Positions 34,079 to 36,360 of a stretch of 64,000 nt of DNA are shown piece after piece. A program made the position numbers and the translations under genes. The notes beneath the pieces are model-generated. The model was not told where the DNA came from, ran no database searches, and saw nothing but the letters and a program-made list of their open reading frames with translations. Position 1 is the stretch's first letter; each line of letters opens with the position of its first letter. This stretch comes from Methanocella arvoryzae MRE50 (GTDB taxonomy: Archaea; Halobacteriota; Methanocellia; Methanocellales; Methanocellaceae), in NCBI RefSeq assembly GCF_000063445.1, contig NC_009464.1, positions 1,798,001 to 1,862,000 of the forward strand, written 5' to 3'.

Positions 34079-34119
34079 AGCACTCGCCTCATATGGTAAA
34101 GTGAATGCGCTCACAAAAA

Positions 34120-34134
34120 GTGAACGACGTTCAC
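34120..34134. promoter_or_regulatory. TetR operator candidate 1
   Basis: The perfect palindrome GTGAAC-GAC-GTTCAC lies between the divergent exporter and TetR genes, 42 bases before the ATPase start. Symmetric half-sites with a three-base centre are usual for TetR-family dimers. A weaker relative, GTGAATGCGCTCAC, lies at 34101-34114. Confidence 0.6.
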
Positions 34135-34861: not shown

Positions 34862-36085
34862 TTACTCTGCCAGCGGCCTGACGTTCTTCAGGTATTCACG
34901 GAAAAGCGGATTGTAGAGACGATACCTGCCCCTGGCCACCTTGACGACCAGCTCCTTTTTAACAAGCCGGTCCAATAGCTTGGTCACACTGCTGCCTTTC
35001 AGCTCGGACGGGGTGATTTCGCTCTGCTGAGCCAGGGCCATCCGGAATAGCAACTCTTGTTCTGCATCCGAGGCTCTGTCCAGATCATCGTGGAACTTAA
35101 GCCTTGCGAAGTGCTCGATGAGTGCCGGGCAGATTCCCTTGAATTCCATGATCGTCAGGCGGCCTTCGTTCATCTCGTCGAGCACGTCCCGCATGGTCAC
35201 AGTCAAGAAATATGGGTGGCCATCGGTGATCTGGTGAATTTTCTCGACGACGGGATCATCGATCGTGAGATCAATGCCTTCGGCTTCGAGGGGCTTTTCG
35301 ATTAGCTGGCGGGTCCCTTCTATGTCAAATGGTTCCAGATCAAACCGCTCGAATAGTCTGGTAAACGGCTCGGCTTTATCCCTCATCTCCGGGTAAAGGT
35401 TGGCCGGCCCGGTGATGATGAACATGAACTGGGCGCCAGATGCCGACAACCCCTGCATTACCGTCCGCAGGTCGTACAGCAGCTCGGCGTTTTCCCGGGA
35501 GGCGAGGGCATAGTGAATGTCGTCCAGCATAACGACGGCAAGCTGGATCCCGCCGGCATGAAGCTTTTCCCAGAACTTGATCATGGTCTCCTTGAAATTT
35601 ATACCTCTGGGCGGAGAGTGTTCTCTGCGCTCGATCTCCGGGGTCATAGATACCTTTGAGATTTTCCAGTTCTCGAAGACGTTCAGCTCCTCTCTGATAA
35701 AGTCTACGACTCGCTGCGGTAGCTCCACAGTGCTCTCGTACTCTCGAAATATGCTCTCCATGAGGTATACGAAGAACGTATCTGCATCAGAGCAGCAGTT
35801 AGGGCTTAATGGTACGCATGCAGAAAAGATCCTGGCACCTTCACTCTCGTTTTTAATCATATCCTTGAACTTCAGGAGCGTAGACGTCTTACCTACTCCC
35901 CAGCCCCCCATGACAGCGATGTTAACCGGGCGAGTGACGCCTCCCGACCGTGATACCGCCATTACGCTGCGATGGAAGGTCAGCAGGAGCTTTTCCCGGT
36001 TAGCATAGTACTTCGGGTTGGTCGGCCCCTGGGCATTGAAAGGATTAACGAAGCGCATGGTTTTAGCTTTTGTCATTTTTGTCAT
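34862..36085 (-). CDS. AAA+ ATPase of ORC/Cdc6-like or STAND type
   Basis: P-loop ATPase of about 407 residues. Walker A VMGGWGVGKTS and Walker B AVVMLDDIH are clear. Sensor-like ITGPANL and the motif FDLEPFDIEGTRQLIEKPL resemble archaeal ATPases of the ORC/Cdc6-like superfamily. A C-terminal winged helix follows (SSVTKLLDRLVKKELVVK). The start is ATG 36085, or GTG 36094, which overlaps the stop of the upstream zinc-finger gene as GTGA. Its first codons (MTIMTKMTK) are encoded by a 23-nt repeat that recurs twice upstream. The role is unknown: replication, signalling or defence are all possible. Confidence 0.72.
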   Translation of the reverse strand: MTKMTKAKTMRFVNPFNAQGPTNPKYYANREKLLLTFHRSVMAVSRSGGVTRPVNIAVMGGWGVGKTSTLLKFKDMIKNESEGARIFSACVPLSPNCCSDADTFFVYLMESIFREYESTVELPQRVVDFIREELNVFENWKISKVSMTPEIERREHSPPRGINFKETMIKFWEKLHAGGIQLAVVMLDDIHYALASRENAELLYDLRTVMQGLSASGAQFMFIITGPANLYPEMRDKAEPFTRLFERFDLEPFDIEGTRQLIEKPLEAEGIDLTIDDPVVEKIHQITDGHPYFLTVTMRDVLDEMNEGRLTIMEFKGICPALIEHFARLKFHDDLDRASDAEQELLFRMALAQQSEITPSELKGSSVTKLLDRLVKKELVVKVARGRYRLYNPLFREYLKNVRPLAE

Positions 36086-36294
36086 GATTGTCACTTTCTC
36101 CTGCCGACACTGAACCACAATGCTTCCGCTTTTCCCTCGCACCGTTTGTGGATAAGCCTGCCATTATAGTACATCCCTGTCCCGGGGTACACTTGCCTGC
36201 CACATATTGCACAAGTCTTTCCAGGCATCTTATACTACCACTGTGTCATTTTTGTCATGATTGTCATTTCTTGTCATTTTTGTCATGATTGTCA
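36071..36294. repeat. Three identical 23-nt repeats around a zinc finger-ATPase operon
   Basis: Copies at 36071-36093, 36244-36266 and 36272-36294, on the plus strand starting TGTCATTTTTGTCATGATTG and ending TCA. Each holds three TTGTCA units spaced nine or so bases apart. Two copies lie upstream of the operon; the third covers the ATPase start codon. They resemble iterons or protein-binding arrays. Confidence 0.85.
36091..36228 (-). CDS. 45-residue zinc-finger protein
   Basis: Short gene read directly from the sequence. The product has a CAIC knuckle near the N-terminus, a Gly/Tyr-rich middle (YPGTGMYYNGRL) and HKRC, giving a CxxC...HxxxC treble-clef-like or HNH-like zinc site. It ends basic (VGRRK). 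ATG at 36228; stop overlaps a GTG start of the AAA+ ATPase gene, so the two are coupled. Such small fingers often bind nucleic acid or tether a partner. No family name is offered. Confidence 0.65.
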   Translation of the reverse strand: MPGKTCAICGRQVYPGTGMYYNGRLIHKRCEGKAEALWFSVGRRK

Positions 36295-36360
36295 TTTTGG
36301 ATATGCAAGCATATACTTTACTATAGTCCGTGACGGAACTATTCGAGCCTGACCTGCACA

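Follow-up and report, generated by a model that had tools for sequence, protein, structure and literature searches.

A 9-bp-phased DNA element, most likely an operator, at the genes of an uncharacterised family of archaeal AAA+ ATPases

Orc1-2, a non-initiator Orc1 protein, binds promoters through its winged helix, in which a pair of arginine residues (R381 and R383) confers specific binding (PMC9738581). PimR, an ATPase regulator, binds cooperatively to triplets of direct repeats separated by 4-nt spacers (PMC5930380). Here, we report that triplets of a short word accompany the gene of an Orc-fold ATPase in Methanocella arvoryzae MRE50. They form part of a DNA element that is real, conserved, and specific to the locus of this ATPase, which belongs to an uncharacterised family of archaea. 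This element is most likely an operator.

The window analyzed here comprises 64,000 nucleotides (positions 1,798,001 to 1,862,000) of the single 3,179,916-base contig of M. arvoryzae (NC_009464.1), and coordinates refer to the window unless a locus is named. The operon lies on the minus strand and consists of a gene for a 45-residue zinc-finger miniprotein with a CxxC..HxxC motif (36091 to 36228), followed by the gene for an AAA+ ATPase with a C-terminal winged helix (34862 to 36085; 407 residues from ATG 36085). An earlier note on this DNA reported three identical 23-nt repeats, two upstream of the operon and one covering the first codons of the ATPase gene and the stop codon of the zinc-finger gene. 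The repeats (TGTCATTTTTGTCATGATTGTCA) are indeed identical at 23/23 positions, at 36071 to 36093 (copy A), 36244 to 36266 (copy B), and 36272 to 36294 (copy C), all on the minus strand, whereas shuffled sequences lead to an expectation of 0. Each consists of the word TGACA present three times at a 9-nt step, i.e., 5-base words separated by 4-base spacers (TGACAatcaTGACAaaaaTGACA on the coding strand). The upstream location of copies B and C also held and could be refined to a tandem pair of direct 28-nt units (36244 to 36271 and 36272 to 36299), in which the six words follow each other at steps of 9, 9, 10, 9, and 9 nt. Copy B lies within the zinc-finger gene leader. Copy C follows a TATA-like box (AAAGTATATGC; 36309 to 36319, minus strand) at a distance of ~20 nt, in the probable start-site region, this box being weak, recognized by eye, and not significant by its consensus score (P = 0.29). 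The inverted repeat ATATGC-TT-GCATAT (36300 to 36320) overlaps the same box.

Copy A contains the TGA stop codon of the zinc-finger gene (36091 to 36093) and the ATPase codons MTKMT, as proposed in the earlier note, although its coding character depends on the ATPase start chosen. The open reading frame offers alternative starts at GTG 36094, ATG 36076, and ATG 36058. Translation could begin at ATG 36058, making copy A a leader sequence, since most homologs begin just before an NPF motif. The ten ATPase residues contributed by copy A are predicted to be disordered (pLDDT of about 37). Because of this disorder and of the position of the start in most homologs, the N-terminal extension resembles a DNA site whose translation is incidental, or even an untranslated leader. 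Elsewhere in the window, an ABC transporter gene and a divergent TetR-type gene are separated by two palindromes at 34101 to 34134 (GTGAATGCGCTCAC, 34101 to 34114; GTGAACGACGTTCAC, 34120 to 34134) that form a probable TetR operator.

Searching the whole 3.18-Mb genome for the exact pattern TGTCAN4TGTCAN4TGTCA recovered these three copies only, and the other matches at 2 mismatches did not exceed those of a reversed control. The 23-mer is therefore not a dispersed repeat, and it was not found in its exact form in viral contigs.

Homologous ATPase genes (28 to 48% identity), which occur in scattered, more distant archaea of two phyla, have 9-nt-phased repeats at the same position. These are mostly triplets, and their words differ (ATGACAAAG, AAGATARCA, AAAGTTAMA, TTAATTTTC, and TTACACAAA). 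L011, from an Altiarchaeales metagenome-assembled genome (48% identity to the window ATPase), has the same layout as the window, with a zinc-finger ORF followed by ATGACAAAG ATGACAAAG ATGACA at the ATPase start, a placement similar to that of copy A; no triplet was seen upstream of its zinc-finger gene. L019 (47%) contains a 49-nt repeat before the finger gene, in four units that each comprise AAGATAGCA AAGATAACA AAGATAGCA. Identity decreases to 46% for L073, 35% for L017 and L018, 30 to 34% for L005, L006, and L007, and 28% for L022/L074, for which the longest-frame start was not used, the reading frame being interrupted close to it. The ATPase copies of L021, L023, L024, L025, L075, and L076 are broken or partial. 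Some loci have their triplets as an inverted pair: in L018, AAAGTTACA AAAGTTAAT AAAGTTAAA is followed 10 nt further by three TAAC words at a 9-nt step, the two triplets flanking an A/T-rich spacer. Triplets occur in both orientations in L075, and TTAATTTTC is present three times in L076. In both L074 and L076, the word runs opposite to the direction of the gene. In six relatives (L005, L006, L007, L023, L074, and L076), the site starts 17 to 26 nt past a TATA-like box, i.e., in the start-site region, the box score being significant in five of these six relatives and, as stated above, not in the window. No related genome with the operon but without the repeats, nor any dispersion of the 23-mer, turned up to contradict the earlier proposal that the DNA itself is under selection. 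This proposal is well supported by the recurrence of the same 9-nt step at the same place despite different words and by the nondispersed character of the 23-mer.

The 9-nt step was evaluated by scoring three-way matches in regions of 180 nt, or of 360 nt where the finger gene intervenes. The match at lag 9 reached the smallest attainable P value (0.001) for the window, L011, L019, L073, L017, L018, L074, L075, and L076. Combining ten loci that we selected as independent by Fisher's method, with gene starts also chosen by us, gave a P value of 4e-12 for lag 9, and values not below 0.2 for every other lag between 6 and 15. The pattern was visible by eye and individually nonsignificant in L005, L006, and L023, and L021 displayed pairs rather than triplets. 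Six matches at lag 9 were obtained for 0 of 632 control windows of real DNA and for 4 of 106 windows of an A/T-rich control whose pool includes family loci. The upstream lag-9 score never exceeded 4 for 33 distant AAA+ relatives, which include Orc1-type proteins and some duplicate loci. With a motif learned from the relatives, A/T tracts outranked the window copies, which came 6th, 11th, and 18th of about 128,000 positions.

These results bear on the possibility that the repeats are the site of a host regulator or functionless local tandem duplications. Simple tandem growth can yield 9-nt repeats, and the ATPase promoter region itself is visibly duplicated with a period of 139 to 141 nt in L005 (1179 to 1387) and L006 (1210 to 1462). 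However, tandem growth does not account for the recurrence of lag 9 alone across separate lineages, and further genomic sites would be expected for a host regulator, whereas none stands out. We therefore regard this explanation as unlikely. L005 also contains a perfect 24-nt tandem at 1422 to 1469.

The miniprotein weakly resembles ribosomal protein L24e, below the cut-off, and is 49% identical in L011 and L019. It is found beside the ATPase only in the window, L011, L019, and L073, which form the subclade closest to the window locus. Since the finger is confined to this subclade, the site tracks the ATPase rather than the finger. The earlier note had considered iterons or autoregulation, with binding by either the ATPase or the finger protein. 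Binding by the ATPase fits the data, whereas the finger is a less likely binder, as relatives devoid of it keep the sites; for the same reason, the miniprotein is probably a partner or modifier. The L24e family binds RNA, and the miniprotein or another factor might instead control expression at the RNA level by binding AUGACA repeats, both in the leader and at the start codon of the ATPase gene. All window copies are indeed within the probable mRNA, one of them at the start codon, which together with the weak L24e likeness would suit this mechanism. Its probability is nonetheless very low in our estimation, since sites are present in relatives lacking the miniprotein and the word may be reversed relative to the gene (L074 and L076). 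The occurrence of triplets both ways on one strand (L018 and L075) also suits double-stranded DNA better than RNA.

Sites were confined to ATPase loci wherever genomes were searched. All four sites of genome G361 and the single site of G415 are at the ATPase locus. Two pattern searches in 159 genomes gave 9 sites, all marking present, decayed, or lost ATPase copies. Five of them adjoin an ATPase gene or a broken copy of it, two adjoin a short remnant, and two persist at loci from which the ATPase coding sequence is cleanly absent. The inverted triplet was detected in 4 of the 51 genomes of one family (0 for the control), at ATPase loci in two of them and, in the other two (G092 and G312), at a site kept in spite of the loss of the ATPase. 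In a second family (108 genomes), the TTAATT triplet was present at 5 places, 3 of them with an ATPase gene or a broken copy of it and the other two with ATPase remnants of about 40 residues (L116:1371-1493 and L117:1377-1478); the control of this search does not discriminate because the backwards pattern matches the same A/T palindromic words. The site can outlive its gene. A viral match to the inverted triplet (L120) was dismissed as fortuitous because it corresponds to a repeat of three codons within the coding sequence of an unrelated protein. Three other observations concern repeats near ATPase genes. In L012, a 9-nt-phased array (TAATAATAG TAACAAAAG twice; 2690 to 2735) lies between convergent genes and is not adjoined by an ATPase gene, the nearest being at 2.3 kb; it is perhaps another orphan site. 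TAACAnATAAGTTACTAACA-like DNA devoid of 9-nt phasing is found upstream of ATPase genes of a different subfamily (L008, L026, and L050) and is perhaps another self-recognition site. Direct repeats of about 325 nt flank an ATPase fragment in L119 (688 to 1040 and 2354 to 2677), with one more copy in L117.

The flanks of the site in G092 and G312 align to an ATPase-bearing locus at about 95% and 88 to 95%, and comparison with the syntenic loci of G112 and G150, respectively, revealed that the ATPase coding sequence is missing almost exactly from the site to the stop codon. Such precision, with the site retained, would be expected if the ATPase gene were a mobile cassette gained and lost at an attachment or homing site provided by the phased repeats. 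The distribution of the gene is also patchy, as it is missing from the other three genomes searched in the same order, and synonymous divergence between G112 and G150 is lower for the ATPase (dS of 0.25) than for the neighboring transporter (0.46; P = 0.002), which leaves room for lateral spread. The YhfC gene neighboring the window operon is not syntenic in G001 to G003. However, the two deletion junctions are unlike each other (TTAA/TTAA versus CATTT/CCTTT), as for independent microhomology deletions, which are the simplest account of the two losses because of this difference. In addition, there is no recombinase and no target duplication common to both loci, the abutting transporter gene accounts for the right edge, and unrelated loci have their own, different words. 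A mobile cassette is thus quite improbable. The same low probability applies to a one-gene archaeal cassette in which an initiator-like AAA+ protein would recognize its own 9-bp-phased triplet and be cleanly gained or lost next to it. The site would then serve as operator and also as place of insertion or excision, with word and protein diverging together.

The window ATPase contains Walker A (GGWGVGKTS) and Walker B (VVMLDD) motifs. The dN/dS ratio of the ATPase is about 0.07, indicating that the protein is under selection. The structural model (pLDDT of 83) displays an AAA+ core, a helical lid, and a C-terminal winged helix, which is the domain composition of Orc1/Cdc6 proteins. It matched 1w5t (ApORC2; Z, 22.3; rmsd, 5.2; 344 aligned residues), 2qen (PAB2304; Z, 21.6; rmsd, 4.3; 322 aligned residues), DNA-bound Orc1/Cdc6 2qby (Z, 20.4), and 2fna (SSO1545; Z, 20.3). 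Weak Orc1/Cdc6 profile matches were obtained for 9 of 10 family members. The window protein scored 35.2 bits against a TIGR02928 cut-off of 181.3 and falls outside the curated Orc1/Cdc6 definition, which also relies on PRK00411 models. From the model, the protein would be of the Orc-fold, DNA-binding type, yet outside Orc1/Cdc6 membership by sequence score. In the winged helix, an R-G-x-Y motif (R385, G386, and Y388) is invariant in the family alignment; by analogy, it may parallel the arginine pair of Orc1-2, a likeness offered as a lead only. The nSTAND1 profile matched 6 of 10 members (best E value, 1.7e-7) and was not listed for the window protein. Matches to PADLOC defense models were weak only, the best (AbiEi; E value, 0.0043) covering the C-terminal 40 residues.

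Origins of replication adjoin orc1/cdc6 genes, and the initiator-clade fold, together with the weak Orc1/Cdc6 profile matches, the inverted triplets around an A/T-rich spacer in L018, and the four 49-nt units of L019, raises the possibility that the triplets are replicator- or partition-type iterons. The ATPase would then be an initiator-like AAA+ protein domesticated from a plasmid or virus, whereas the triplets would be an origin or centromere kept beside its gene. We consider this improbable. The flanking regions were read without finding a relaxase, Rep, ParA, or integrase gene, the window copies are direct rather than inverted, and the sites lie at the probable transcription start rather than in a separate origin region. 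Close ATPase relatives were absent from viral contigs and phages, and plasmid-borne relatives were only 20 to 25% identical; for lack of close relatives, homology did not point to a viral or plasmid origin.

The reading that we favor, at slightly better than even, is that the operon is autoregulated, the ATPase binding its own operator cooperatively as a small oligomer and repressing transcription. The site is probably a switch through which the ATPase regulates its own expression, since it sat only at the ATPase gene wherever a genome was checked. Phased repeats occur at the gene's own promoter across homologs, with words that diverge and a step that is constant, as expected of a binder and a site that co-evolve. 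Autorepression is favored because transcription is expected to start within the site, so that an oligomer bound there would obstruct the polymerase. In this mechanism, the Orc1/Cdc6-like ATPase with its C-terminal winged helix would contact one core word per protomer, with neighbors 9 bp apart, a step that would set successive protomers along a spiral rather than on one face of the DNA. In the window, the oligomer would occupy the two triplets just past the TATA-like box and the third at the junction of the zinc-finger and ATPase genes, thereby blocking transcription initiation and ATPase expression, with ATP as the presumed switch. Several observations run counter to this reading: G092 and G312 keep the site without the ATPase coding sequence, for which an operator alone would not account unless the loss is recent, and L019 has at least four triplets, which is many for a repressor. 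The triplet of L011 only at the ATPase start, the individually nonsignificant L005, L006, and L023, the pairs of L021, the ranking of the window copies behind A/T tracts, and the nonsignificant TATA score of the window also weigh against it. The locus ties an unnamed archaeal AAA+ family to a specific, checkable DNA target, and its natural protein-site pairs, with several words at one 9-bp step, could be used to derive a recognition rule for Orc1/Cdc6-like winged helices.

Neither this ATPase family nor an archaeal operator with a 9-bp step was found described in the open-licence literature, within which, as far as could be found, the 9-bp geometry of the probable operator is new. To our knowledge, no operator is known for ATPases of the PAB2304 (2qen) and SSO1545 (2fna) type, archaeal Walker-type ATPases of the Pfam ATPase_2 family (PF01637) whose fold is similar over nearly the whole length, although the window ATPase scores below the gathering cut-off of that family (21.5 versus 33.2 bits). 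Orc1/Cdc6 proteins, including Orc1-2, share the AAA+ module and the C-terminal winged helix and provide the best structural matches, but the sequence score is far under their family cut-offs (35 versus 181 bits) and, by inspection, the site (TGACAATCATGACAAAAATGACA) has no ORB-type G-tract. Orc1-2 acts at promoters as a global regulator through an ANTTTC element (PMC9738581), whereas the site described here is confined to its own locus. Plasmid iterons are similarly short, direct, and adjacent to a gene encoding an initiator-like protein, but the present repeats have a promoter position, a 9-bp step, and no plasmid context. The SARP-LAL and STAND regulators PimR (PMC5930380) and MalT (PMC4381067) are likewise ATPase regulators. 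PimR is bacterial, has another DNA-binding domain, and recognizes repeats of 7 + 4 = 11 bp, or one helical turn; the window repeats measure 5 + 4 = 9 bp. The archaeal family could reveal how DNA is read by an AAA+ oligomer whose protomers are spaced by less than a helical turn.
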